A stretch of DNA of 20,301 nt, taken from positions 1 through 20,301 of the IMG/VR virus record IMGVR_UViG_3300008267_001220; one strand, given 5' to 3'. Below, piece after piece: positions 1,493 to 16,534 of this stretch. The position numbers were made by a program, and so were the translations under genes. The notes below the pieces were generated by a model. The model worked only from the letters and a program-made list of their open reading frames with translations. It searched no databases and was not told the DNA's origin. This DNA is from a virus. Each line of letters opens with the position of its first letter. Within the stretch, counting starts at the first letter, position 1.

Positions 1493-2443
1493 TTAACACT
1501 CTCCTACCGACATTGAAATTTTATTAATATTTTTTAACTTCTTAGGTTCTACTTCAATAATTGTTTGCCTGTTAATACCATACCAATCAATTGTAAAAAC
1601 ATTTTTACTTTGTATATCTTCACAAATACCAAAATCATTATATTTCACATATGTTGGTTTGTGAATATAATGCATCATCATCTTTCGATAGCTCTCATTG
1701 AAAGAATTGATGTAAACACGGTTTTCTTTAAAACCAGTTGGTGCCCATTGTATATACACTTGATGCCTGGTGTTTTGATTTGAAGTATCTCTTTCTAACA
1801 TTTCAAGAAAATTTATAATTTCTTTTTTGAATTCTTTGTTCCATTTTACTTCGTAGTTAATTGCCAATCGAACATTCTTACTATCACTTGGTACTACTTT
1901 GACCGATTTAATTGTCACATCCAAACCAGATTCTCTGATTTGCTTCATATAGTATTTTGTAACTACTTCTTTTTGTAAAAATGCATTTTTGGCAGTTTGA
2001 TGTTGCATAAACAAATCATTACCATTCACTTGAATCGTTTGCGAATCACCTTGGAGCTTTCGCATAAACTTCATCGGCGAAACTTTTGCAACAACTTCAC
2101 AAGTAATTGGCACACCATCACAATTTTTCACTTTGTAAGAATTGACAACACCAGAAGAATATTGTGCAACCAAATCTCGGACAACTTTATCTCCACTTAC
2201 AGTTTGTTCGGAGAGAATTAAAACACCAACCGCATTTTGAACTGCCATATTTAAAGCGTTCTCAATAGCGATTGGTTGTGTTTCTCCAATACCTTTTGTT
2301 GTTACTGTGATTTCTTCGGGAACAGATTTTGATGCAAAAAATTCAACTCCTTTGATAATTAAAGAAACATAATCCATTGGCGAAATGGCATTTGCCTTTG
2401 TAGCAAATGCCATTAATATAACTCCAAAAATATATTTTTTCAT
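1493..2443 (-). CDS. Exported protein with FlgT-N-like domain (316 aa)
   Basis: Residues 1-19 form a Sec signal peptide (MKKYIFGVILMAF...ANA), with likely cleavage before Ile20. Residues about 45-110 match the FlgT N-terminal / LPP20-related fold pattern: EITVTTKGIGETQPIAIENA, then ALNMAVQNAVGV and a paired Cys (CDGVPITC). In bacteria such domains occur in periplasmic or outer-membrane assembly proteins (FlgT of the flagellar H-ring). The remaining 200 residues are not recognised. It lies 19 nt after an LPP20-like lipoprotein gene, so the two probably act together in the host envelope. Pelagimyophages have been reported to carry curli-secretion genes, which is an analogy only. The upstream ribosome binding site is weak. 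Confidence 0.7.
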   Translation of the reverse strand: MKKYIFGVILMAFATKANAISPMDYVSLIIKGVEFFASKSVPEEITVTTKGIGETQPIAIENALNMAVQNAVGVLILSEQTVSGDKVVRDLVAQYSSGVVNSYKVKNCDGVPITCEVVAKVSPMKFMRKLQGDSQTIQVNGNDLFMQHQTAKNAFLQKEVVTKYYMKQIRESGLDVTIKSVKVVPSDSKNVRLAINYEVKWNKEFKKEIINFLEMLERDTSNQNTRHQVYIQWAPTGFKENRVYINSFNESYRKMMMHYIHKPTYVKYNDFGICEDIQSKNVFTIDWYGINRQTIIEVEPKKLKNINKISMSVGEC

Positions 2444-2462
2444 TTAACAAACGCAATTCATT

Positions 2463-3002
2463 TTAGTTTCCCATTAATGCACGAACTTGCTTTGCGGCAG
2501 AAATATCTTTTGTGCCAGTTCTGACAACTACCCGAACAGTATTGGTTGCGGTATCATAACTTTTGGATTCAACATAAACACCTTGCAAGATTGCCTTCGA
2601 TTTCGACTTGATGTTTTGTTGTACCTCATAAGCAATTTTAGAATTCACTTCATTATTTGCCTGACCATTGGTTGTCTGACCTTGTTGTAGTGATTCGGTT
2701 GCAGTATTTGCAAACTTATCGCCTTCAAGTTCATTCTTCATAAACTCTGAAATCTTTTGTTTAGCACGCATATTGGCAATAATGAATGCCTCTTCTTGAG
2801 CTGAGGGCAAAGTAGAAGTAACTCGAGCAGTTCCTGCCGACTGTAAAGTTTCAAATTGACCTTCTTTGTTAAAAGTCACTTTGATATCGCCGCCCATAAA
2901 TTCAGCCGTAACCGATTCTGGACCTTCAACCTTTTGTTTATTGATTGCCGAACACGCCGTCAAGAGTGCCACAGTAGAAAGTATAACAACTTGCTTTAAC
3001 AT
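2463..3002 (-). CDS. LPP20-like lipoprotein (179 aa)
   Basis: The N-terminus MLKQVVILSTVALLTAC is a lipoprotein signal with lipobox LTAC (Cys17). The mature part contains the LPP20-type alternation: SAGTARVTSTLPSAQEEAF followed by IIANMRAKQKISEFM, then TVRVVVRTG near the C-terminus. A Gln/Asn-rich stretch (about 100-125) separates the halves. I chose the ATG at 3002 because GGAG lies 6 nt before it; the in-frame ATG 12 nt upstream overlaps that GGAG. The product should be anchored in the host outer or inner membrane on the periplasmic face. It precedes the FlgT-N-like gene. The 76-nt leader has a TACAAT box but no convincing -35. Confidence 0.75.
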   Translation of the reverse strand: MLKQVVILSTVALLTACSAINKQKVEGPESVTAEFMGGDIKVTFNKEGQFETLQSAGTARVTSTLPSAQEEAFIIANMRAKQKISEFMKNELEGDKFANTATESLQQGQTTNGQANNEVNSKIAYEVQQNIKSKSKAILQGVYVESKSYDTATNTVRVVVRTGTKDISAAKQVRALMGN

Positions 3003-3078
3003 TTGAATCTCCATAATTAATTAATTTCTTCACAAACAAGACTACATTGTAACATAAAAACACCGAAATTTGCGGCAA

Positions 3079-5413: not shown

Positions 5414-5683
5414 TCACATTGAAAAATAAGTTTCGGAAGAAGGCGAGCAATAATACGGTGTATCGTAGCGCTCTTTAAATTCTACGCCGGTCAGTATATT
5501 CTTTTTGGTGACCATTGTTTCAAAAATTGCATAACGAAATTTATCACTGCCGTATTGCTTGGCCATTTCTTTTTCCAAACCATCTTTTGTGACATTGACA
5601 AAATCAATTTGCGCTACCATTCGCTCGCCTCTGTGACACCGGCGGTCTATTTTGAAAATCTCTACCGTATAATCGTTTCGCAT
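5414..5683 (-). CDS. Small phage protein (89 aa), first gene of operon
   Basis: Begins MRNDYTVEIFKIDRRCHRGE and ends DTPYYCSPSSETYFSM; a soluble alpha/beta-looking protein with two cysteines. I recall similar YTVEIYxxDRRCxxGERxV proteins in phages, with no known role. Shine-Dalgarno AAAGG lies 7 nt upstream. It follows a perfect sigma70 promoter (5714-5742), with a leader of about 24 nt. Confidence 0.75.
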   Translation of the reverse strand: MRNDYTVEIFKIDRRCHRGERMVAQIDFVNVTKDGLEKEMAKQYGSDKFRYAIFETMVTKKNILTGVEFKERYDTPYYCSPSSETYFSM

Positions 5684-5713: not shown

Positions 5714-5742
5714 ATTATACTACAAATCGGCAGTATTGTCAA
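5714..5742 (-). promoter_or_regulatory. Perfect consensus sigma70 promoter
   Basis: Minus strand TTGACA (5737-5742), 17-bp spacer, TATAAT (5714-5719): a full match to the E. coli sigma70 consensus. The predicted start is near 5707, 24 nt before the 89-aa gene. The -35 is within GCTTGACAA. The 18-bp dyad (5749-5766) and a 30-bp palindrome (5784-5813) lie directly upstream. Confidence 0.92.
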
Positions 5743-5748
5743 GCGGGG

Positions 5749-5766
5749 TGTTGCGTAGAAACAACA
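5749..5766 (-). promoter_or_regulatory. TGTTG-N8-CAACA dyad upstream of promoter (copy 1)
   Basis: Perfect 5-bp arms around 8 unconserved bases, 6 bp upstream of the -35 box. The dyad centre lies near -50 relative to the predicted start. The same arms, spacing and position recur at 7148-7165 and 12872-12889. A 5-bp stem with an 8-base loop is too weak for a terminator, so an operator or activator site is more likely. Confidence 0.6.
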
Positions 5767-5783
5767 GTCTGAGCACTAGACCT

Positions 5784-5813
5784 GGTATGTGAGTGAGTAC
5801 TTACTAACATACC
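5784..5813. repeat. 30-bp near-perfect palindrome (repeat copy 1)
   Basis: Arms GGTATGT and ACATACC flank an inner palindrome centred on AGTACT; 13 of 15 base pairs match. It contains AGTGAGTACTTACTAACAT (5792-5810), repeated exactly at 7185-7203. It begins at the TAG of the preceding gene and lies upstream of promoter dyad copy 1. It has no following U-tract. Confidence 0.7.
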
Positions 5814-6154
5814 TATCGCCGCATATTTGCCTGATCTTTTGCCTCTTCATCTGTGAAAATTGGTACGGCATTTGATTTGTGTAAAGTACCAATACCTTTC
5901 ATCTTATCACCAGTGTATTGTAATATTTCTTTTTTGTAAGCAACATAATCGTTGCTGTTCAAAGAAGGATAATGTGGTGTTTCACGGCGATATGGTTTTG
6001 GTTGTTGCAAAGATTTAATCGCAATTTTTTCACCAAGTGTTTTAGACTTTGGTGCATATTTGGCAATCAATTCTTCCCACTCTCTGGCAAGTTCACGCTG
6101 TTCGGCGGTGGGCTTGCGCTTTCTGGATCGTTGATGTGTATAAATGATTGTCAT
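5813..6154 (-). CDS. Conserved phage protein, GIGTLHKSNAVP family (113 aa)
   Basis: Starts MTIIYTHQRSRKRKPTAEQR, continues with a predicted helix (ELAREWEELIAKYAP), then YRRETPHYPSL, YTGDKMKGIGTLHKSNAVP and EEAKDQANMRR at the C-terminus. I recognise the last two blocks as strongly conserved in a phage family of unknown function. The basic N-terminus could contact nucleic acid. The ATG at 6154 follows the previous TAA by one base (TAATATG); longer in-frame starts would run through the upstream gene. Its stop codon abuts the 30-bp palindrome. Confidence 0.75.
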   Translation of the reverse strand: MTIIYTHQRSRKRKPTAEQRELAREWEELIAKYAPKSKTLGEKIAIKSLQQPKPYRRETPHYPSLNSNDYVAYKKEILQYTGDKMKGIGTLHKSNAVPIFTDEEAKDQANMRR

Positions 6155-6155
6155 A

Positions 6156-6341
6156 TTAGCAAACAGGATCTTGTACTTCAATATCAAGTAAATCTTTATC
6201 TTGTAAATTAAAACTGATATAATTGGCCATGGCTTCGCCAGTTCCTTTTGAAATACACTCCGATAATATCTGCAATTCTTCTGCATTCATTTGATTAATT
6301 TCACTTGCGATACGAATAACTTTTAAAGTATTTACTTTCAT
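6156..6341 (-). CDS. Small helical protein (61 aa)
   Basis: The product (MKVNTLKVIRIASEINQMNA...) is mostly predicted helix and acidic at its end. TTGGAG lies 6 nt before the ATG at 6341; an in-frame ATG 12 nt upstream lacks a comparable site. It sits between the 104-aa and 113-aa genes in the operon from the promoter at 7113-7141. Not recognised. Confidence 0.65.
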   Translation of the reverse strand: MKVNTLKVIRIASEINQMNAEELQILSECISKGTGEAMANYISFNLQDKDLLDIEVQDPVC

Positions 6342-6353
6342 AATAAACTCCAA

Positions 6354-6668
6354 TTAAAATGCAATAGATTCAAAACCAAAAGGCGCAACAAACTTGGTCA
6401 CACCATCTTCACGCTTTACAATATCACCAACCGATACCGAGTGCATATCGTCAATGCGAGTAATTTTTTCTTCAGGACCAATGTTACCAATTTGGAATAC
6501 TTCTTCAAAATCGTCAGCATCAATCTCTGCTACTTTAGCATACAGACCACTTGCTTTCTCAATCGCTTGTGTGGTAGGATTCATAATTGTGTCAAGGTAC
6601 ATTTCACGCAAGACACCATTTTCATAATCTTTGTCGGACAGGTTGATTTGATATAAATTAAATTTCAT
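6354..6668 (-). CDS. Conserved phage protein with HSVSVGDIV motif (104 aa)
   Basis: The pattern YQINLSDKDYENG near the N-terminus and DDMHSVSVGDIVKR followed by a terminal GFESIAF is shared by a broad group of phage and plasmid proteins related to YodL-like domains. The function of these short proteins is unknown. It is soluble and acidic. It follows the SWIM-domain gene by 2 nt and is part of the same operon. Confidence 0.75.
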   Translation of the reverse strand: MKFNLYQINLSDKDYENGVLREMYLDTIMNPTTQAIEKASGLYAKVAEIDADDFEEVFQIGNIGPEEKITRIDDMHSVSVGDIVKREDGVTKFVAPFGFESIAF

Positions 6669-6670
6669 AA

Positions 6671-7084
6671 TTAAACTCCAAGTTTATTTGCTACTGCTTT
6701 CACATGACTACAGGTTCTACGATAGCCATACCCGGTACAACCACAACTCAACTGCTTTGTATTAATTTGAAAAGACACCTCATAGGTTTTGTTTTTAGAT
6801 TTCGACTTTACTTTAAACACACGAACAAAAGCTGACGGCATTGCATTTTCTTGCCGTTCTTCTTTATAATTTTTGGGAATTAATTTAGATAAACCGACAT
6901 GATTGACTTCCACAAATTTGCGGTATTTCTTGTCAATAATATACGGTGAATTTAATTTATGAATCGTTTTATCTTTTACATTATAATAAGCGATAATACG
7001 ATTTTTTGGATCAAGTAAATAGGTATGATTATAAACAGTATAATCACATATCCACTCGGTTGTTTCTTTCAGTATTTTAAACAT
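6671..7084 (-). CDS. SWIM-type zinc-finger protein (137 aa)
   Basis: The C-terminus carries a SWIM motif CxCx8CxH: C114, C116, C125 and H127, in QLSCGCTGYGYRRTCSHVKA. SWIM domains bind zinc and contact DNA or protein. The N-terminal 100 residues are an unassigned, aromatic- and Lys-rich region ending in KVKSKSKNKTYEVSF, the strand that usually precedes SWIM. I use the ATG at 7084; an in-frame TTG at 7099 is possible, and neither has a good Shine-Dalgarno. It is the first gene after the promoter at 7113-7141, with a leader of about 20 nt. Confidence 0.75.
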   Translation of the reverse strand: MFKILKETTEWICDYTVYNHTYLLDPKNRIIAYYNVKDKTIHKLNSPYIIDKKYRKFVEVNHVGLSKLIPKNYKEERQENAMPSAFVRVFKVKSKSKNKTYEVSFQINTKQLSCGCTGYGYRRTCSHVKAVANKLGV

Positions 7085-7112
7085 AATAAGCGCTATCAAT
7101 CATTATGAGGCC

Positions 7113-7141
7113 ATTATCTCATAATTTGCCTATCTTGTCAA
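7113..7141 (-). promoter_or_regulatory. Sigma70 promoter of the SWIM-gene operon
   Basis: Minus strand TTGACA (7136-7141), 17-bp spacer, GATAAT (7113-7118), in the shared context GCTTGACAA. The predicted start is near 7106. Upstream lie the 18-bp dyad, a 10-bp-period direct repeat and a palindrome. Confidence 0.88.
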
Positions 7142-7147
7142 GCACTT

Positions 7148-7165
7148 TGTTGTTTAAAAGCAACA
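7148..7165 (-). promoter_or_regulatory. TGTTG-N8-CAACA dyad upstream of promoter (copy 2)
   Basis: Same arms and 8-bp spacing as at 5749-5766, again 6 bp upstream of the -35. The inner eight bases differ between copies, as expected for a dimer-binding site with a tolerant centre. Confidence 0.6.
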
Positions 7166-7182
7166 GTATAAAACAGTATAAG
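7163..7182. repeat. Two tandem 10-bp repeats
   Basis: ACAGTATAAA is followed at once by ACAGTATAAG, identical in nine of ten bases, with a period of one DNA helical turn. They overlap the upstream arm of dyad copy 2 and end at the palindrome at 7182-7201. The arrangement could hold protein bound on one helix face. The repeat is absent at the other promoters. Confidence 0.6.
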
Positions 7183-7201
7183 TTAGTGAGTACTTACTAA
7201 C
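7182..7201. repeat. 20-bp near-perfect palindrome (repeat copy 2)
   Basis: GTTAGTGAGTACTTACTAAC is palindromic except for one pair. It lies within a 19-base identity (7185-7203) with 5792-5810. It covers the TAG stop of the 57-aa gene and stands upstream of promoter dyad copy 2, the same order as at the other locus. The outer arms seen at 5784-5813 are missing. Confidence 0.7.
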
Positions 7202-7370
7202 ATCCCTCTTGTAGGAGACGCTGTTCCAATGTCTCTCGCCAATCTTCCTCATATTCGGCAAGTTTAAGGCGACCTAACTCTTTTTGTAAAATTTCTTTTT
7301 CGGCAGAATCAGATGCTATCTTATTTTCTAATTCTGCTATTTGTTTTAGAAGCAATTCTCTATACGACAT
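7197..7370 (-). CDS. Small coiled-coil protein (57 aa)
   Basis: A 57-residue ORF with heptad-like Leu/Ile spacing (ELLLKQIAELENKIASDSAE, then KEILQKELGRL), ending WRETLEQRLLQEGC. It is very probably a short coiled coil. An AGGAG motif lies 10 nt before the ATG. It overlaps the 51-aa gene by 11 nt, and its stop lies in the palindromic repeat. Function unknown. Confidence 0.65.
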   Translation of the reverse strand: MSYRELLLKQIAELENKIASDSAEKEILQKELGRLKLAEYEEDWRETLEQRLLQEGC

Positions 7371-7515
7371 AATCTTCTTTCTCCTGTTTTACTAATCGGT
7401 AAAATGATTTGTCATGGTGCCTGGGTTTTTCAAAGTGTTTACCACCTTGTTGGTCTTTATTTTTCTTAAATTTTGTTTTTGTTGGTTTTTGAAACTTCTT
7501 GCCGCCTGTTAGCAT
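7360..7515 (-). CDS. Small basic protein (51 aa)
   Basis: The product MLTGGKKFQKPTKTKFKKNK... is strongly basic over its first 40 residues and probably unstructured, fitting an RNA- or DNA-binding peptide. GGGAGG occurs 13 nt before the ATG, a long spacing. It lies directly after clpP and overlaps the 57-aa gene by 11 nt. Similar Lys-rich mini-proteins are common in phages but carry no assigned role. Confidence 0.55.
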   Translation of the reverse strand: MLTGGKKFQKPTKTKFKKNKDQQGGKHFEKPRHHDKSFYRLVKQEKEDYVV

Positions 7516-7533
7516 TTCTGAAAATTAACCTCC

Positions 7534-8109
7534 CTATAAAATATAATCAGCAATACCAAGTTCAACGAGTTCTTCAGCCTTCAACCAAACATCGGATGCA
7601 GGAAGAAGTTTTCGTTTAATTGTAGAACCATTGAGGTCGGTACAAGTTTTTAACAACTCTACCATACGCTCATTGACATTATCACATTCTTTTGAAAACG
7701 ATTTAATATCGTGGTGCTTTGTTTCACTTATTTCATCACTATATTGATGCGAAAGAATACTAGCATTTTTGGCAATATAACGATGGTCTCTAGTGCCTGC
7801 CGCAAAGATAAGAAATGCAGACGACATAACATTACCAAGACCAACTGTTTTAATTGTGTGCTTAGAATTTCGCATTAAGTCTATTAAAGCAAATGCATCA
7901 TTCAAAAGACCACCAGTGGAATTGATATAGAGTGTTAATTCTTTTTCTTCATCGCTGGTATTTTCATAAATCAACCAACGAATTGCATCATTAATGTTTT
8001 CTTCGGTAATATCACCGTTGAGAACAAATGTATGATTTTTAAGTAAATTAAGACCGATGATATCATCTGCACCTAATCCCTCATGTTTTTGAATATCTTT
8101 ATTTACCAT
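7534..8109 (-). CDS. clpP: ClpP-like serine protease (191 aa)
   Basis: A complete S14-family protein of the usual length. Register against E. coli ClpP gives the triad Ser96 (GNVMSSAF), His121 (ILSHQYSD) and Asp173 (ASDVWLKAEELVELGIAD); the Gly-to-Ser (4) and Ser-to-His (25) distances are identical to E. coli. INSTGG at 62-67 matches the conserved pre-nucleophile glycine loop. An active tetradecameric peptidase is therefore plausible. Partners could be host ClpX/ClpA, to redirect host proteolysis, or it may act in virion processing; neither is shown. The N-terminal axial-loop region is atypical. The start overlaps galE by 11 nt, and a perfect promoter lies in galE about 40 nt upstream. Confidence 0.92.
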   Translation of the reverse strand: MVNKDIQKHEGLGADDIIGLNLLKNHTFVLNGDITEENINDAIRWLIYENTSDEEKELTLYINSTGGLLNDAFALIDLMRNSKHTIKTVGLGNVMSSAFLIFAAGTRDHRYIAKNASILSHQYSDEISETKHHDIKSFSKECDNVNERMVELLKTCTDLNGSTIKRKLLPASDVWLKAEELVELGIADYIL

Positions 8110-9049
8110 TTTGTTTAAGATGCCAATTATAAGCTGTTTGTAGAATAGATATTATATCATGTTTTGGGGTGTATGTCAATATTTTTTTGGCAAGAGTTAT
8201 ATCGGCAACCAACATATCTGGATCACCAATTCGCCTTGGTAAAGTTACCATATTTGTCATAGAAGATTTTGTGATTTCAATGATTTTTTTAATAACAGAA
8301 ATTACCGATTCACCTTTGCCGGTACCAAGATTAAGTATGTGCGATTCTTTGCCTGCCATAAGGTGATCGGCAGCAAGGATATGAGCAATGGCAACATCGC
8401 TAACATGAACATAATCTCTGACACAGGTGCCATCTTCTGTATTATAATTTGTTCCATATATTTCAACATCATTATTTAGATTTTGTAAGATTTTAGGAAT
8501 TAGATGTGTTTCTGGTACATGATTTTCACCAAACTCCCCATCTGGATCTGAACCAGCGAGATTGAAATATCTAAAAATAATATAATTTAAACCAGATTGA
8601 CGAATTGCCAGTTCTGCACAATATTTACTTCCCGCATAGGGATTGTTGAGAGGATTCACTTCATCGATTTCTGTTATTGTTTCTGTTTTCGATTTGTAAA
8701 CGCCAGCTGTTGAAGAGTAGATAATATTTTTTGTACCCCAATACAACATGGCATTTAACAATGTGTTTGTACCAGCAGTATTATTATGATAATAAACTGT
8801 TGGTTCTTTTACTGATTCCCCAACTTCTATTTTTCCGGCTAAATGAAAAACAACATCAATTTTTATTTTATCGAAAAGTGTATGTAATGCCTTAGAATCA
8901 TTTACATCACAAGTTTGAAAAAAATCAACATATTGATTTGATGTGTGTTTCACATCTATTCCAACTACTTTCCATCCTGATTTTTTTAATTCTTTAGCTA
9001 AGTGTGAGCCAAGATAGCCAGACACACCAGTGATCAAAGCGGTTTTCAT
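8099..9049 (-). CDS. galE: UDP-glucose 4-epimerase (316 aa)
   Basis: An extended short-chain dehydrogenase fold. The NAD-binding motif TGVSGYLGSH is at 7-16. The catalytic set is present: SST at 112-114 and YxxxK at Tyr138/Lys142 (NPYAGSKYCAE). FRYFNLAGSDPDGEFGE (159-175) and the VRDYVHVSDVA block are GalE signatures. GalE interconverts UDP-glucose and UDP-galactose using bound NAD. In this setting, next to a glycosyltransferase with an ATGA overlap, it probably supplies a sugar donor for glycan modification of the host surface, DNA or virion. At 316 aa it is slightly shorter than E. coli GalE (338). A related epimerase specificity cannot be excluded. Confidence 0.88.
   Translation of the reverse strand: MKTALITGVSGYLGSHLAKELKKSGWKVVGIDVKHTSNQYVDFFQTCDVNDSKALHTLFDKIKIDVVFHLAGKIEVGESVKEPTVYYHNNTAGTNTLLNAMLYWGTKNIIYSSTAGVYKSKTETITEIDEVNPLNNPYAGSKYCAELAIRQSGLNYIIFRYFNLAGSDPDGEFGENHVPETHLIPKILQNLNNDVEIYGTNYNTEDGTCVRDYVHVSDVAIAHILAADHLMAGKESHILNLGTGKGESVISVIKKIIEITKSSMTNMVTLPRRIGDPDMLVADITLAKKILTYTPKHDIISILQTAYNWHLKQNGK
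8151..8179 (-). promoter_or_regulatory. Perfect consensus sigma70 promoter inside galE, driving clpP
   Basis: Minus strand TTGACA (8174-8179), exactly 17 bp, TATAAT (8151-8156), within the last codons of galE. The predicted start near 8144 is about 35 nt upstream of the clpP ATG. The surrounding bases differ from the GCTTGACAA context of the other promoters, and no dyad is present. It would let clpP and the two small genes after it be expressed apart from galE. Confidence 0.8.
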
Positions 9050-9807
9050 GCTGTCAATAGTATGCCAGGACCAATTTCAATTTGATGTAAATTATTGCCA
9101 TTTTTCCATGGAAACTTTTCACCATATTTTTCTTTCATCGCTTTATTACCTTGATCAAAGAAATCTTTAGTGACAGAATTTGCATTTCCGTCTAACCGAT
9201 AGCAAAGTGTATGGGCATGAGTACAATCAAATTTAGGAAAATGCATTGATAGATTCGAAAAGAATTGTCTATCAGCACCCCATTGGCCATACCATGCGTG
9301 TCCTATGCGAACAGCAATATCACGCTTAACGGCAAAAGAAGAGGTGTCAATATGGAACACCTGATTATTAAAATATACAGGCCACTTACCAAGCGATTCA
9401 CAGTTGTCATCACAGATATATTCTCCGTCTTTATTATAAATTTTTCGTAAAGAATAAGCCCAATCATTTCCAGATTGAATCTTATCCACCAATTTTTGAA
9501 CATGACAAGGCTCGTACCAATTGTCTTCATCAAGGTAACAAATAATATCAGCGTTAACCAAAAAAGAAGATGCAGCATAAACTCTATGTCCATACCAACC
9601 CTTGCCAATGTTTTCTTCCAAGACGATGGTTTTTGTTTTAGGTGTTGCTGAAGTTTTAAACAATCGCTTTCGTACCATGTCTTCATGTCCACCACCATCT
9701 ATGAATATGTAATGAGTTAAATCTTGATAAGTTTGATCCCGAACACTTTCTAAACATTTATTTAAAGTGTCGGAATTAATTGTTGGAGTTACAACAGCTA
9801 CTTTCAT
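9046..9807 (-). CDS. Family 2 (GT-A) glycosyltransferase (253 aa)
   Basis: The N-terminus MKVAVVTPTINSDTLNKCLE followed by SVRDQTYQDL is the classic GT2 nucleotide-binding start. The metal-binding DXD is D93-E94-D95 (CYLDEDNWYEP), and WGADRQFF (176-183) supplies the likely catalytic Asp179. Sugar and acceptor are unknown. It overlaps galE by 4 nt, suggesting use of UDP-galactose or a similar sugar. I prefer the ATG at 9807; an in-frame GTG at 9813 overlaps the previous stop. Neither has a strong Shine-Dalgarno. No membrane segment is visible, so it is probably cytoplasmic. Confidence 0.85.
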   Translation of the reverse strand: MKVAVVTPTINSDTLNKCLESVRDQTYQDLTHYIFIDGGGHEDMVRKRLFKTSATPKTKTIVLEENIGKGWYGHRVYAASSFLVNADIICYLDEDNWYEPCHVQKLVDKIQSGNDWAYSLRKIYNKDGEYICDDNCESLGKWPVYFNNQVFHIDTSSFAVKRDIAVRIGHAWYGQWGADRQFFSNLSMHFPKFDCTHAHTLCYRLDGNANSVTKDFFDQGNKAMKEKYGEKFPWKNGNNLHQIEIGPGILLTA

Positions 9808-9809
9808 AA

Positions 9810-10232
9810 TCACATTTCAGGAAAAGATTCTTGTATGAGTTTAATCGTTAGATTTTTTACTTTGAACTTTTTTTGAATTACATCTACCAAGATTGTAGCT
9901 TCATCTTTATGTAATGATTCTAAAATCACTAACAATAATGATGCCTGTTTTTCTGGCGTTAATCCCTCAGGTCTCTGAGCATTGTGTTTGATAAATCTGT
10001 AGAGTTTTGGAACTTCACTATCAAGATATGTGTAATTTAATCCTGCTGGTTCAATTGCAGGCCTATACTTTGGAACAACAACATCAAATTCGACAGTTGG
10101 ATCTAAAGCATAAACTAGAAATTTTCTCAATCTAGGATTGTCATACTTCCTTAAAATGGCAATTCTATCTGCCTTTGTTTCTGCTTTTTCGAATTCATCA
10201 AAAATTTCAAAAAATAATTTACCCTTAATCAT
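9810..10232 (-). CDS. DUF6433-like conserved phage protein (140 aa)
   Basis: A soluble alpha-helical protein with the pattern FFEIFDEFEKAETKADRIAI near the N-terminus, FLVYALDPTVEFDVV, and YRFIKHNAQRPEGLTPEKQ with a following LLVILESLHKDEA. I recognise this as a family common in T4-like marine phages (DUF6433, from memory). Its role is not established. Its constant place beside the RNase H-type nuclease hints at replication. It overlaps the RNase H stop by 1 nt (TAATG) and the glycosyltransferase start region downstream. Confidence 0.75.
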   Translation of the reverse strand: MIKGKLFFEIFDEFEKAETKADRIAILRKYDNPRLRKFLVYALDPTVEFDVVVPKYRPAIEPAGLNYTYLDSEVPKLYRFIKHNAQRPEGLTPEKQASLLLVILESLHKDEATILVDVIQKKFKVKNLTIKLIQESFPEM

Positions 10233-11080
10233 TAAAAATCATCCAATACTTCAAGTAGGTTTTTGAGACGGTTCGCAATCATGTAATTCATAAATTCTTG
10301 CTTTGTATGACCTTTTGCGCTCTCATATGTATCTAGTATTTCGACCACTAATTTTTGTGGTATTTTTGTTAGATCTATTAATATTTCGTTACGAGAATAA
10401 TTACGAAGCATTTCATCGTTACAAAACTCTTTTGGATCTTGATTCATCCAGTTTATGATTTTAGCTTCAGTAATTGGTTTTTGTCTACCACCGGTAACAA
10501 ATACATCATCAGCTGAAAGTATGTTAGGGATACCATCACCTTTATCGCCACGAATAATCATTTGTTTAAGTTGCGCCGCAGGTAAAGGTTCTTTGATATA
10601 TTTTTTTAGAATAGGTGAAAATTGCTCAACATTAGGAAACTTTTGCAGTTGAGCAAAATCTTTATCACTCGAAAGAATCATAATCTTTTGAGTTGCTGAA
10701 TATTTTTGTGCCAATACTGCAATAATGTCATCTGCCTCACAAGTATCAATTGAAATCACTTTGTAAGGCGAATTATCTTTTAACTCATCACGAATTTTAT
10801 TAAGACATTCAAAAATAGTATTCCAATCGTGACCAGAGGCATCACGAGCTTTCTTACGACCAGCTTTGTAGTGAGGATAAATCTCGCGGCGCCAATAGTT
10901 TTTGTTATCACAAGCAATAACAATTTCAGGTCCATGTGATTCTTTAAACTTCTTCACATAGGTACGAATAGTATTCAAAATCATATGGCGTACCAAAGTT
11001 TCTTCTACTTGTGTTTTAGAAGAACCGATTTGTTCCATCAGATTTGAGATTGCTACTTGATTGTAATCGAAAATTATCAT
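10232..11080 (-). CDS. rnh: T4 RNase H-type 5'-3' flap exonuclease (282 aa)
   Basis: A FEN/T4 RNase H family nuclease that removes RNA primers and flaps during lagging-strand synthesis. Acidic metal ligands are in their expected places: Asp5 (IIFDYNQ), Asp58 (IACDN), Glu115/Asp117/Asp118 (CEADDI), Asp139/Asp141 (SSDKDF), and the helix-hairpin-helix region RGDKGDGIPN (177-186). YPHYKAGRKK (68-77) is the substrate-contacting basic segment. Length is close to T4 RNase H (305 aa). The ATG at 11080 gives the family N-terminus; a TTG five codons upstream is less likely. There is no clear Shine-Dalgarno. A TATAAT box lies only 6 bp before the ATG without a matching -35. Confidence 0.9.
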   Translation of the reverse strand: MIIFDYNQVAISNLMEQIGSSKTQVEETLVRHMILNTIRTYVKKFKESHGPEIVIACDNKNYWRREIYPHYKAGRKKARDASGHDWNTIFECLNKIRDELKDNSPYKVISIDTCEADDIIAVLAQKYSATQKIMILSSDKDFAQLQKFPNVEQFSPILKKYIKEPLPAAQLKQMIIRGDKGDGIPNILSADDVFVTGGRQKPITEAKIINWMNQDPKEFCNDEMLRNYSRNEILIDLTKIPQKLVVEILDTYESAKGHTKQEFMNYMIANRLKNLLEVLDDF

Positions 11081-11122
11081 TTCACTATTATACAATAAAA
11101 AATGTCAAAAATACGGCAAAAT

Positions 11123-11557
11123 TTATTCGTTATCCCTTTTATTGATTTCAAAAATTAAATTGGTAACAAAATCGTGATCGAGTTCGGTAGAGTTATTATC
11201 TTCAAAAGGAATAATATCGACCTCATCATTCTCAACATCATACCAAGCCCAAATGCAAACTTCTTCTTTTGGCCGGTGTATCAAAGCCCAAGGTGTTAGG
11301 TCGTGCGGAGGAAATTCTTCCGTCAAAGAATTTTTATGAACAAACACCGCAAAACCTATCATATTTTCATTGGCATTTTCTTCATCGGTATCTTCATCAT
11401 ATCCATAACCATCAAATATAATTTTAACGCCGAACGGTGCATCACCAGATTGATCACCAGGTTCTAAATGACCGTCATCCATTGTACAAATGAATTCACG
11501 CACCCAACCTTCTACGATTTCGGTGTAATCACGATCATCATTCAGATATATCGTCAT
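11123..11557 (-). CDS. Acidic phage protein of unknown function (144 aa)
   Basis: A very acidic protein with aromatic residues (IIFDGYGYDED, ALIHRPKEEVCIWAWYDVEN, DEVDIIPFED), with no signal or membrane segment. It is acidic enough to suggest a DNA-mimic-like surface, but this is only compositional. The ATG at 11557 has GGGAGG 6 nt upstream; the longer in-frame ORF start lies in the preceding gene and is rejected. It overlaps the 63-aa gene by 20 nt and ends the operon from the promoter at 12836-12864. Confidence 0.7.
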   Translation of the reverse strand: MTIYLNDDRDYTEIVEGWVREFICTMDDGHLEPGDQSGDAPFGVKIIFDGYGYDEDTDEENANENMIGFAVFVHKNSLTEEFPPHDLTPWALIHRPKEEVCIWAWYDVENDEVDIIPFEDNNSTELDHDFVTNLIFEINKRDNE

Positions 11558-11729
11558 CTTCTTCCTCCCAATGTCTGCAATAAAATTGATCACCCATCTT
11601 ATCAATTTGTTCTTGTGGATAACCTTCACTTACAAGCCAAGCCATCAAATCTTCTGGTGCAGGACTTGGCACAACTTTTGGAAACCCATATTTCCATCCG
11701 CCTGGCGGATCAATCATATGCACTTTCAT
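11538..11729 (-). CDS. Small phage protein, MKVHMIDPPxGWKYGFPK family (63 aa)
   Basis: The start MKVHMIDPPGGWKYGFPKVV and the end GDQFYCRHWEEEDDDISE resemble a short family I have seen in phages of aquatic bacteria, with unknown function. It overlaps the gene before by 4 nt (ATGA) and the gene after by 20 nt, so all three are translationally coupled. Confidence 0.75.
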   Translation of the reverse strand: MKVHMIDPPGGWKYGFPKVVPSPAPEDLMAWLVSEGYPQEQIDKMGDQFYCRHWEEEDDDISE

Positions 11730-12805
11730 TTTGTTACTTTCAATAAAATAGTATCTGCATTAATACGACCTGTTAACTTACTGTCAACAGCACGAATACT
11801 TTCCATCACATTACGAAGAAACACTTTACCACCATTTAACACTTCAGGCAGCATCTCATCTGGTTTACGCAATTTCTTTTGAATAGATTTGCTTTCTACG
11901 AAATTCAGAATCGATGAACCTTTTACTGATAGACCACCAGCATCTTCAGCATGATACACACCAAGTTTACGGGTCTTTGTGTTGTATACCCATAACGACA
12001 TAGCACCAATTATATCAGTAGACTTCACAGAGGTCAAGCTTAATTCTTTAAATTCAGGCATAAAATTCATCTTCGCCGTTAATTGTTCAGGTGACTTTGC
12101 CTTGCGTTTTCTTGGCTTACGACTTGCAGTTGTAATTGCTGAAACTTTTTGGCAATCAAGAATTACTTGATCACAATAGGCAATAATCTTTTTAACTTCA
12201 GTTTTCGAAAAATTAGAATATCCCTCTTTCAATTCTTTATCATCGGTATTTAAAACCTCATCAAACTCATTTCGTTTAGTTTTTATCCAATCGACAATAA
12301 ATTTTGTTTGACCATCTTTAATAGCCAATGTATGCATAACAGCAAATGGCATAACATTTGCAGTAAATTTTGAATCAATAAGTATGTCGATTTGTCCTTC
12401 TAATTCACCAATACACTCATTTGCCTTTTCACGAATTCGGTCTTGAATACTTGGACCTTTTTTAACTTTTTCAATTACAATGTTTGTTTGAACTTTTGCG
12501 ATCTCTTCACGGATCAATTCAACTTGTTCATCAAACCATTTTTGGCGTTCTTCTGATAACACACCGCCATTTGCAACGATTCGACAAATGAAGCCGAATT
12601 GTGGTGGTTTTGTTTTAACAACCGAAGATGCATCCAATTTCAATTTCTTTTTAATGAAATCGTTGGCGTATTTTTGCGAATCTTTGGATTTTTTATTTTG
12701 AGAGTACCATGACAATGTTGATCCCAATTCACTATCATTAATAACACCAGAAAATTTTGGTTCTTTACCAACAAACTTTTCATTCGCATCAAGTATTCTT
12801 GCCAT
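11726..12805 (-). CDS. Conserved phage protein (359 aa), function unknown
   Basis: A large soluble protein. The N-terminus reads MARILDANEKFVGKEPKFSG. A helical middle (about 85-225) is rich in Glu and Lys, then comes a short basic linker (SRKPRKRKAKSPEQL, about 231-245). The C-terminal domain contains MSLWVYNTKTRKLGVYHAED and an SVKGSSILNF motif. I recall similar proteins of about this size in T4-like marine phages, all unassigned. The two-part architecture with a basic hinge suggests nucleic-acid contact, unproven. GGAG lies 7 nt before the ATG. It is the first gene after the promoter at 12836-12864. Confidence 0.75.
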   Translation of the reverse strand: MARILDANEKFVGKEPKFSGVINDSELGSTLSWYSQNKKSKDSQKYANDFIKKKLKLDASSVVKTKPPQFGFICRIVANGGVLSEERQKWFDEQVELIREEIAKVQTNIVIEKVKKGPSIQDRIREKANECIGELEGQIDILIDSKFTANVMPFAVMHTLAIKDGQTKFIVDWIKTKRNEFDEVLNTDDKELKEGYSNFSKTEVKKIIAYCDQVILDCQKVSAITTASRKPRKRKAKSPEQLTAKMNFMPEFKELSLTSVKSTDIIGAMSLWVYNTKTRKLGVYHAEDAGGLSVKGSSILNFVESKSIQKKLRKPDEMLPEVLNGGKVFLRNVMESIRAVDSKLTGRINADTILLKVTK

Positions 12806-12835
12806 TACAAATCTCCATTATTTACTTAGAGTACA

Positions 12836-12864
12836 ATTCTAACATAATATATTTATTTTGTCAA
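12836..12864 (-). promoter_or_regulatory. Sigma70 promoter of the 359-aa gene operon
   Basis: Minus strand TTGACA (12859-12864), 17-bp spacer, TAGAAT (12836-12841), again in GCTTGACAA context. The predicted start near 12829 is about 24 nt before the ATG at 12805. A dyad and strong hairpin lie immediately upstream. Confidence 0.85.
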
Positions 12865-12865
12865 G

Positions 12866-12895
12866 CCCTAGTGTTGCATAAAAACAACACTAGGG
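12866..12895. promoter_or_regulatory. 11-bp hairpin containing the TGTTG-N8-CAACA dyad (copy 3)
   Basis: CCCTAGTGTTG and CAACACTAGGG form a perfect 11-bp stem with an 8-base loop. The inner part (12872-12889) is the same TGTTG-N8-CAACA element found at two other promoters, here 7 bp upstream of the -35. The longer stem may also terminate or protect the transcript of the exported-protein operon that stops at 12908, but neither strand has a U-tract after it, so a classic intrinsic terminator is not supported. Confidence 0.65.
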
Positions 12896-14251: not shown

Positions 14252-14685
14252 ATTTTGTAACCCTTAAACAAATAAACTAAAATAGAAACGATTCCTAGTA
14301 TCCACCAGAAAAGATCATTTACCTTATCTTTATCTTTTTGTACAAGTTTCATTTCTTCTTCATCGTGTTTATTAATCTCTTGTTTTATTTGTTGAACTCG
14401 TTGCCATGCTTCTTTACCATATTTGTTGATTATATCTTTCTCCATTTTTTGAAGCATTTCTTTTCGTTCTTGTTCTTCTTGGAACTTTTCAAATGCTTTA
14501 AATTCAGCATTTATAAGCATTCTTTCTTTTGATTTTTTTTCTAACTCTCTACTTTTATGTGCTTGTTTTACAGCTTCATTGTTATCAGATTGTATGTCTG
14601 TAACAATTTTAGCAGTATCTTTAGCAAGTTTTTGAGTATCTTTAAGAAGATTTAATTCTTTAGATATATTGTCTAAATCGCTCAT
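14248..14685 (-). CDS. C-terminally anchored coiled-coil protein (145 aa)
   Basis: Almost entirely charged helix (residues 5-122) with a recognisable NKYGKEAWQRVQQIKQEI block, then one transmembrane segment at about 125-141 (LFWWILGIVSILVYLFKGY). The tail anchor suggests a protein held at the inner membrane facing the cytoplasm. It overlaps both neighbours by ATGA. The family is not known to me by function. Confidence 0.8.
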   Translation of the reverse strand: MSDLDNISKELNLLKDTQKLAKDTAKIVTDIQSDNNEAVKQAHKSRELEKKSKERMLINAEFKAFEKFQEEQERKEMLQKMEKDIINKYGKEAWQRVQQIKQEINKHDEEEMKLVQKDKDKVNDLFWWILGIVSILVYLFKGYKI

Positions 14686-15983
14686 TTGTATTGCTGATTA
14701 ACCATTTCTTCGTGTAATCTATCAGACCCACCAAACATTCTACGACCAGCATTCCTATTGTCAACTACATCTTTTCCATACAATTTTTTCATTTGTCTTT
14801 CTAAAACATCTGGAACATTTGCTTGGGCATATAAAGAAAACCCCGGAACAAAACTCATACTGTCTATAATTTTTGGTTGTGCTGCAACTTGTTTTTCAAA
14901 CTCGGTCATACCAGCTGTGTTTTCTTCTTTCTTACGAGATTTCTTTTCTTTTTCTTCTTTTGATTTTTTGTCATTTTTAGATTCACCATTTGTTTTAGAA
15001 GAATTAGAATTTAAACTATACAAAGAAAGATCTTCTTCATCATCTTGTTTTGCTGTTCCTGTTCCATATAATCTGCCAGAAGAAGTTGCGCTAGAAGTTA
15101 AACTTACAACAGCAGTAACATCAGCTGGCGAAGCAGATGTTGTTTGAACTTGCATAGAAGATTCTAATGTGCTATCGCTAGTTGTGCTATTTGAAGAAGA
15201 AGATGACACGGACAATAAATTTTGCAAAAAATTAGCCCTAGAATATGCTTGCTGATAACCAGGACACGAAGGATCATAGAGAGCACTAATAGAACATTGT
15301 TGTGTCAAGTATGCTGCGGCATAACCAGGACAAGTTGGAGAAGATAAAGGATTAGTAGAACAGGCATTACTGGTTGAATTTACAGACCAATCTTGTAATG
15401 ATTGTCCAGGAATGCCTCTACCAAAATAAAACTTCTGCATCTCGCCAAGAGCTATATCACCTGTTATGCCAGCAGTTACATCTTGATTTCTAACACCAAG
15501 TTGAGTATATGATGCTCCAATATATCCAGATGGGCGAATCTCCAAACTAAATGAATTCAGATTACTTTGATTACTGATTTCTGGAATGTTGTTCCAGAAA
15601 TATCTTTGGTATGTTGTTGTGCCTTCTGTTCTAAATGATGATGTTGCTATAGGATATAGATCTGTCCATAAAGCTGAAATCATATAATTAAACTGTGGAC
15701 CAAGTTGTGTATTAGAAGGAACTAAATCAACGCCAGCACAACAATAAGCCCAAGCAGCAGGATTAGATGACGATCCTGGTAATGGAGAAGCAGGATCAAA
15801 AAATGAAACTATACCATTAGAGTGCATCCACGAATTTGTAAACACTCTATTGTAAAATGGAAATCCAAATTGTAATGGCACATGAACATACGAATCATCT
15901 GTAAATGTTGGTGTGGTTATTGTTGGCGTTTGACCGTATGCCACACCACAAAAAAACAATAAGGACAGTAAAAGCTTTCTCAC
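14682..15983 (-). CDS. Large exported protein with NIDO-like domain and CPGY repeats (433 aa)
   Basis: Signal peptide at 1-17 (MRKLLLSLLFFCGVAYG). Residues about 25-190 look like a NIDO-type beta domain: FTDDSYVHVPLQFGFPFYNR, then SNGIVSFFDP and ALWTDLYP. Two Cys repeats follow: NPLSSPTCPGYAAAYLTQQC and ALYDPSCPGYQQAY (CPGY at 218-221 and 240-243). Next come a Ser/Thr-rich linker (255-310), a Lys/Glu-rich stretch (335-355) and a conserved-looking C-terminus (365-425). NIDO-like folds occur in extracellular adhesion proteins, so a cell-surface role is inferred. It is coupled by ATGA overlap to the 184-aa secreted protein before it and the anchored coil after it. Confidence 0.75.
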   Translation of the reverse strand: MRKLLLSLLFFCGVAYGQTPTITTPTFTDDSYVHVPLQFGFPFYNRVFTNSWMHSNGIVSFFDPASPLPGSSSNPAAWAYCCAGVDLVPSNTQLGPQFNYMISALWTDLYPIATSSFRTEGTTTYQRYFWNNIPEISNQSNLNSFSLEIRPSGYIGASYTQLGVRNQDVTAGITGDIALGEMQKFYFGRGIPGQSLQDWSVNSTSNACSTNPLSSPTCPGYAAAYLTQQCSISALYDPSCPGYQQAYSRANFLQNLLSVSSSSSNSTTSDSTLESSMQVQTTSASPADVTAVVSLTSSATSSGRLYGTGTAKQDDEEDLSLYSLNSNSSKTNGESKNDKKSKEEKEKKSRKKEENTAGMTEFEKQVAAQPKIIDSMSFVPGFSLYAQANVPDVLERQMKKLYGKDVVDNRNAGRRMFGGSDRLHEEMVNQQYK

Positions 15984-16534
15984 TTGCAGCCTAATCTCTC
16001 TTTAATTGTTGGATCATCGCCTGCATAATCTTTACAAATAAATTGGTCTTTCTTCACTTCAGGTTTTTTAGGTGCAGATACTCCATAAAAACCAATATCT
16101 AAACTTTTTGTTGTAACTCCTCTTTTTTCCCATTCTTCTTTAGCATCAGAGCCAATTTTACCGTCAACAGGGCATGGAGTACCTGCGGCATTCATAGCCG
16201 TAAAAATACGCTCGTCTTGGCATAGAGTTGCTACTGCGGCAACTTTCATACCCATGTCATAAAGATTTTTTGCTAGTTTAATTCTTTCGCAATTCATATC
16301 TCTCATTGTACCGCCCATAGAGATACCAAGAATTTGTGTTTGTACTGCGCCAGATGCAGCTACGGCGCAAACATCGTTATTAATAGTTGTGATTGCTGGA
16401 GCTACCGCAGTTGGAGGAGGACTTTTTAAAGTCGTTTCTGTGGTGCTTCGAGAAGTTGAATCTGTGACGATTGGTTGAGCATAAGCAAAACTAGATGCTA
16501 CAACCATGAATGCTGAGACCAAAATGCGTTTCAT
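15980..16534 (-). CDS. Exported Cys-containing protein (184 aa)
   Basis: Signal peptide MKRILVSAFMVVASSFAYA with cleavage before Gln20. A low-complexity Ser/Thr/Pro segment (24-45) precedes a conserved-looking core: NNDVCAVAASGAVQTQILGI, then MRDMNCERIKLAKNLYDMGM and VAAVATLCQDERIF, followed by AGTPCPVDGKIG. I recall this core in T4-like marine phages beside the large exported protein, with no assigned function. The cysteines probably form periplasmic disulfides. It is the first gene of the exported block, about 80 nt after the tRNA pair. Confidence 0.78.
   Translation of the reverse strand: MKRILVSAFMVVASSFAYAQPIVTDSTSRSTTETTLKSPPPTAVAPAITTINNDVCAVAASGAVQTQILGISMGGTMRDMNCERIKLAKNLYDMGMKVAAVATLCQDERIFTAMNAAGTPCPVDGKIGSDAKEEWEKRGVTTKSLDIGFYGVSAPKKPEVKKDQFICKDYAGDDPTIKERLGCK

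Follow-up and report, generated by a model that had tools for sequence, protein, structure and literature searches.

Many uncultured T4-like phages carry the same short palindrome directly in front of certain strong promoters, where it is probably a docking site for a protein that aids RNA polymerase. Such a role is predicted because the distances between palindrome and promoter keep the palindrome on one face of the helix. More specifically, we consider it fairly probable that TGTTGY-N6-RCAACA is a homodimer site at a subset of promoters of the host-sigma70 type, phased with them and serving activation or recruitment in a class I-like manner. The phased dyad offers a searchable handle on the transcription programmes of uncultured T4-like phages: it would mark a co-regulated gene set, together with its start sites, in many phages at once, and provides a ready target sequence for fishing out the regulator.

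Dyad copies and promoters in the window

An exact pattern search of the window, that is, the whole 20,301-bp stretch of viral DNA analysed, returned exactly three matches to TGTTG-N8-CAACA, namely the three dyads listed in the first-pass annotation: copy 1 at 5749-5766 (TGTTGTTTCTACGCAACA), copy 2 at 7148-7165 (TGTTGCTTTTAAACAACA) and copy 3 at 12872-12889 (TGTTGTTTTTATGCAACA). All three are read on the minus strand, which is the coding strand for all genes near them. Dinucleotide shuffling gave an expectation of 0.01 copies in the window as against the three found, and three copies were reached in none of 100 shuffles. The inner 8 bp are constrained to Y-N6-R in all three copies. At copy 3 the symmetry extends beyond the dyad, into a longer inverted repeat on the minus strand (12866-12895, CCCTAGTGTTG-N8-CAACACTAGGG).

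A promoter on the minus strand follows each copy. The sigma70-type promoter of copy 1 (5714-5742) consists of TTGACA (5742-5737), a 17-bp spacer and TATAAT (5719-5714); that of copy 2 (7113-7141) of TTGACA (7141-7136), 17 bp and GATAAT (7118-7113); and that of copy 3 (12836-12864) of TTGACA (12864-12859), 17 bp and TAGAAT (12841-12836). The gaps of 6, 6 and 7 bp between dyad and TTGACA that had been described are correct on this strand, and by arithmetic the dyad centre falls at about -50.5 relative to the start, taking the first T of TTGACA as -35. The promoters at 4412-4384 and 8179-8151 indeed have no dyad. The promoter at 8179-8151 sits within a GalE-like ORF.

The first gene of the copy 1 unit (5414-5683, minus strand) encodes 89 aa of unknown function, and its homologues stand behind dyad promoters at three loci (L006, L141 and L250). 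Behind copy 2, the first gene (6671-7084, minus strand) encodes a protein whose cysteine-rich C-terminus looks, by eye, like a SWIM zinc finger; its homologues follow dyad promoters at six loci (L067, L070, L116, L123, L330 and L335). The gene behind copy 3 (11726-12805, minus strand) encodes a 359-aa member of phrog_11903, of unknown function. A second, separate palindrome, to which no strand was assigned, lies upstream of copy 1 directly after a stop codon (5786-5814, GTTAGTAAGTACTCACTCAC), and the same palindrome precedes copy 2, where it includes part of the stop codon of ORF 7197-7370 or all of it (7179-7207, GTTAGTAAGTACTCACTAAC). It was considered as part of the dyad element and rejected, as most of its copies elsewhere are without a promoter.

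Distribution of the element in viral and cellular genomes

At least 120 loci in IMG/VR have the dyad followed by 4-9 bp and TTGACA, with a good -10 box at 16-18 bp in most of the matches listed, and at least 120 loci are found even when a gap of 6, a spacer of 17 and TATAAT are all fixed. Given that almost all of the IMG/VR matches listed have Y..R as their inner base pair, we define the element as TGTTGY-N6-RCAACA, and the window dyads are a local case of this widespread element. A control pattern with scrambled arms, GTTGT-N8-ACAAC, matched 101 loci in the entire IMG/VR collection under far looser settings (gap 0-30, spacer 16-18, TANNNT); these loci had a flat gap distribution and no Y..R bias. 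In two sets of fetched contigs, both picked for holding at least one dyad, dyads outnumbered matches to a reversed control pattern by 65 to 2 and by 59 to 1.

By comparison, 257 Gb of bacterial and archaeal genomes yielded 42 matches to the strict dyad-promoter architecture. Most of these are either chance matches, members of unrelated recurring families or, in several cases, apparently viral contigs that strayed into MAGs; no host regulon of the same layout was seen among them. Judged from the viral loci, the low control counts and these cellular matches, the element is strongly enriched in viruses. The same cellular search weighs on the idea that phages exploit a host regulator of the CRP/FNR type with a TTGY-N6-RCAA core. 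The half-site of the dyad resembles the TTG-type sites of that family, and a CRP-type helix-turn-helix domain (PF13545) was found in none of 23 phage contigs, so that a phage-encoded CRP/FNR-type binder was rejected and any binder of this type would have to come from the host. With so few cellular matches and no regulon among them, however, we regard a host CRP/FNR-type binder as quite unlikely.

Contigs with the dyad encode T4-type genes, including a clamp loader, UvsX-like, RegA-like (PF01818), RNase H-like and CobS/CobT-like proteins. Among named phages, cyanophages have the clamp loaders most similar to theirs, at approximately 60% identity, and the nearest relative of the RNase H encoded in the window is in Methylophilales phage Melnitz (49.5%), which has been reported to lack identifiable middle promoters (PMC9004378). 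Among the ten named relatives scanned, the strict dyad was absent from Cr30, Melnitz, DC31, DLP_6, phiM12, XacN1, SynMITS9220M01 and RHph_I1_18. Variovorax phage V45v66 has one dyad 7 bp 5' of TTGACA but with a poor -10 box, and BUCT-ZZ01 has two, neither with a good promoter. In contig G033, the dyad promoters of the tRNA region are followed by leaders ('GTTCTTTAAAAATTTGTAGAGT') that resemble proteobacterial boxA.

Linkage to promoters and conservation at orthologous promoters

Four T4-like contigs of 121-172 kb (G035, G040, G033 and G036) hold 36 dyads in total, of which 35 lie upstream of a correctly oriented sigma70-type promoter scoring at least 10/12, and 33 do so with a gap of no more than 20 bp. 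The motif is thus not as frequent away from promoters as at them. Conversely, 24 of the 89 strict promoters in these contigs have a dyad; the dyad therefore marks a subset of strong promoters, as the first-pass annotation had proposed. No dyad in the four contigs overlaps the -35 or -10 box or the start site.

We also gathered 80 CobS-like loci by protein similarity, blind to the motif, 76 of which have upstream DNA. Perfect arms were present upstream of 42 of the 76 genes, and arms with one or two mismatches upstream of 13 more. In 36 non-redundant upstream regions, dyad and promoter (at least 10/12, gap 5-8) occurred together in 29, both were missing in 7 and neither was ever found alone; arithmetic puts the chance of this at 1 in 8.3 million, assuming independence and before allowing for relatedness. 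At the third promoter of the window, the relatives L320-L322 have different inner and flanking bases but the same arms, and L323-L326 have a promoter and no dyad. The expectation that arms and spacing are conserved at orthologous promoters is therefore borne out at the CobS promoters, and for copy 3 in part, the dyad being kept in three of the seven relatives with the intergenic promoter.

The pattern of conservation bears on whether the dyad might be a module like an UP element, read by the C-terminal domain of the RNA polymerase alpha subunit (alphaCTD) alone, with TGTTG/CAACA as a shape-setting frame. At a gap of 6, the A/T-rich inner segment would span approximately -47 to -54, within the contact region of UP elements (PMC5101437), and alphaCTD sites are helically phased as well. 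Nevertheless, the ten G/C-containing arm bases are the invariant part and the inner segment is variable, which counts against a direct alphaCTD site, where the reverse would be seen: at the CobS promoters, conservation does not lie in A/T tracts, as arm positions reach 1.5-2.0 bits and most inner positions 0.5-1.3 bits. We consider such a module very improbable.

Helical phasing relative to the -35 box

Across 225 non-redundant dyad promoters, nearly all dyads lie upstream of the -35 box without overlap, at a gap of 5-10 or of at least 13 bp. The gap peaks at 6-7 (with a shoulder at 9-10), 15-16, 25 and 35-36 bp and dips at 11-12, 17, 22-24 and 31 bp. As gaps of 4-9 are over-sampled by the scan for a dyad, 4-9 bp and TTGACA, the test for periodicity was confined to gaps 11-41, where it gave P <0.001 at 10-11 bp against smoothed nulls. 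Once promoters sharing 60% identity had been merged (n=74), a period of 10.5 bp fitted best (P ~0.0002), that is, allowed distances differ by full turns, although the best-fitting period is less sharp for gaps 11-30 only and its exact value should not be over-read. Taking one site per locus gave the same result, and the gaps of the scrambled-arm control showed no periodicity (P ≥0.3). The phasing indicates a DNA-bound dimer that would contact RNA polymerase from a fixed face. When the promoter strand is read, the inner segment may be A-rich (134 cases) or T-rich (73), in keeping with a symmetric site.

Phasing to the -35 box is not expected of an RNA hairpin, which we weighed as a terminator or as a processing or insulation signal for the upstream transcript. 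Dyads often stand behind a stop codon, and copy 3 forms an 11-bp stem (RNA fold, -20.1 kcal/mol) that covaries in L320-L322, where the flanks differ but have the same extension (CCTGCC/GGCAGG) and an equally paired stem. At least five extra flank pairs were found at 12 of 184 sites (1.7 expected), and at L547 the dyad forms part of a stem that has a T-tract. On the other hand, the fold energies of copies 1 and 2 are a mere -4.7 and -3.4 kcal/mol, in stems of 5-6 bp without a U-tract, and copy 3 has a strong stem and likewise no U-tract, so the G+C-rich stem plus U-tract of an intrinsic terminator is found in none of the three. Compensatory changes that would maintain a stem are not seen in general either: the arms are invariant, and flank complementarity goes beyond chance at those 12 sites only, not at most sites. 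Moreover, a C.A mismatch, unfavourable for a hairpin, occupies the inner pair position in 68 of 225 dyads, and some dyads already follow a tRNA or a complete intrinsic terminator (within 40 bp before the dyad in 10 of 225). A hairpin was rejected as the general function on flank complementarity, folding energies, mismatches and phasing, and we hold it to be highly unlikely; an added hairpin-like role is possible at a few sites, e.g., copy 3.

A dimeric DNA-binding protein near -50, the reading put forward in the first-pass annotation, is supported by near-invariant arms amid drifting inner and flanking bases, by promoter linkage, by the C.A mismatches and by the phased spacing. We suggest that a homodimeric, sequence-specific protein binds TGTTGY-N6-RCAACA. 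At gaps of 6-7 the bound dimer would be centred about 50 bp upstream of the start, and at the larger phased gaps it would sit one to three full helical turns beyond that, facing RNA polymerase from the same side at every phased distance. The simplest mechanism would be activation or recruitment as by class I activators, with the flexible alpha C-terminal domains making the contact. Some features speak against this proposal. The partner promoters have near-consensus -35 and -10 boxes, and such promoters usually need no activator; the gap of the near cluster varies over 5-10 bp even among orthologues, which argues against a rigid contact; and -50 is not a classical class I or class II position of CRP.

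The strength of the promoters is also the main argument for the dyad being an operator, at which a phage or host repressor would block alphaCTD or UP-element contacts or bend the DNA for stage-specific silencing, since consensus promoters may need shut-off and no activator. The near cluster occupies the UP-element position, and in Melnitz, 11 promoters have a related dyad, TGTT-N5-AACA, between their -35 and -10 boxes, where repressors typically bind. Phasing out to a gap of 35-36 is hard to reconcile with simple blocking, however, and none of the contigs examined has a dyad over the -35 or -10 box or the start site. Repression thus appears rather unlikely to us, and less likely than activation.

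A candidate regulator

The first genes behind the dyads encode many small unknown proteins, with no obvious shared regulator among them. A small winged-helix protein resembling PF14090 is a lead only. The Pfam PF14090 model found too few genomes, and a profile built from phage proteins (A1) was far more sensitive; with it, a single copy was found in all but one of the 13 contigs of at least 120 kb that bear dyads (12 of 13) and in 2 of 10 named phages, counts of co-occurrence that are uncorrected for phage relatedness. Of 60 loci that extend far enough, 57 have its gene immediately after the one for the CobS-like protein and thus in the CobS operon, which is often headed by a dyad promoter. 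In an AlphaFold model (pLDDT 86.8), the protein folds as a winged helix and has one additional helix at its C-terminus. In this fold the candidate would be akin to PadR-family and other winged-helix regulators, and PadR-operator complexes are among its structural matches, but these matches are weak (E ~0.05 or more, TM ~0.5). Dyad and protein also occur apart: contig G035 has 11 dyads without the protein, which is conversely encoded by G004, Melnitz and DLP_6 in the absence of any strict dyad.

We tentatively raise the possibility, itself rather doubtful, that a broad uncultured T4-like clade encodes a PF14090-like activator. Bound to TGTTGY-N6-RCAACA in phase with the -35 box, it would raise the expression of a defined early regulon. 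If true, the clade would possess a phage-wide regulon atop strong host-type promoters and an activator system distinct from MotA/AsiA.

Comparison with known systems

Activator-type sites upstream of promoters are familiar as such. For the dyad family, with its particular sequence and distribution, no published description was found in the open-access literature searched. T4 middle promoters share with the present ones the T4-like phages and the pairing of host sigma70 with a phage DNA-binding factor, putative here. The MotA box is non-palindromic and replaces the -35 box at about -30, whereas here the -35 box is intact, with TTGACA at all three window promoters and the dyad upstream of it. 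UP elements, as at T4 early and rRNA promoters, resemble the dyad in position (-40 to -60) and in the A/T-rich inner segment; the dyad differs in its sharp palindromic, G/C-containing arms of about 2 bits per position.

In class I activation, alphaCTD is touched by an activator bound at about -61.5 (PMC5101437). Like the class I sites of E. coli CAP/CRP, the dyad lies upstream of the -35 box on one helical face, and by arithmetic its centres are at about -60.5 and -70.5 in the gap-16 and gap-26 classes. It differs in that the commonest centre is about -50.5, the -35 and -10 boxes are near consensus and the phage contigs encode no CRP-type protein. Finally, phage Mu encodes the middle/late activators Mor and C. 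Mor is a dimer that interacts with both alphaCTD and sigma from a dyad whose centre is at -43.5 (PMC4287176). Mor/C and the system proposed here would have in common a phage-encoded dimer, here only predicted, and a dyad upstream of a host-sigma70 promoter; the Mor dyad, however, overlaps the -35 box of a promoter that requires its activator, whereas the dyad described here clears the -35 box.

Sequence context of the dyad in phage contigs

A second palindrome, the 20-bp GTNAGTRAGTACTYACTNAC, lies at 5786-5814 and 7179-7207, upstream of the minus-strand dyad copies 1 (5749-5766) and 2 (7148-7165) in the window. When it was searched alone by pattern scan, at least 120 IMG/VR loci were recovered; among the matches listed, most palindromes had no promoter and they were often clustered with variants centred on AGCGCT or GGTC. 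One possibility is that freshwater genomes carry this palindrome as an iterated repeat.

At locus L547 (2372 and region), a complete intrinsic terminator, GGCTTGTTG-N8-CAACAAGCC-TTTTTT, is built around one TGTTG-N8-CAACA dyad and stands upstream of a promoter. In the tRNA region of the long T4-like contig G033 (94239-95396), dyad promoters are followed by GTTCTTTAAAAATTTGTAGAGT. This sequence resembles boxA in the leaders of rRNA operons from proteobacteria and gives a clue to the host.

Comparison with bacterial promoters and phage Melnitz

Five Planctomycete genomes (L283, L284, L286, L291, and L297) carry a TGTTGYTTTTTTGCAACA-like dyad, 7 bp and then TTGACA-17/18-TATAAT, ahead of an NtrB-like histidine kinase gene whose start is almost leaderless. 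Seven contigs from Eisenbacteria and other MAGs (L289, L294, L298, L305, L307, L312, and L316) share a TGTTGCG-type dyad, 25 bp and TTGACA-16-TATAAT in conserved surroundings. Further, G+C-centred dyads (TGTTGCTGCNGCGCAACA and similar) occur in Rhodocyclales (L299, L302, and L318) 7-8 bp upstream of TTGACA-16-TAGAAT, and have GCGGTGCACCAT in common downstream; they probably belong to another regulator.

In Methylophilales phage Melnitz (MZ577097; L790-L797), 11 promoters have a conserved TTGTT/TGTT-N5-AACA dyad (TTGACWTTTGTTNNNNNAACATGTATAMT) within the -35/-10 spacer, which is a typical repressor position. No spacer-located dyads of this type were detected in four dyad-bearing contigs searched. 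According to a profile search, Melnitz also encodes a protein distantly homologous to the winged-helix candidate, the PF14090-like lead for the dyad-binding regulator. Furthermore, the window ORFs at 1493-3014 and 14682-16534, whose N-termini appear signal-peptide-like or lipoprotein-like by eye, possibly represent a secretion or curli-like cluster, such as that reportedly present in Melnitz.
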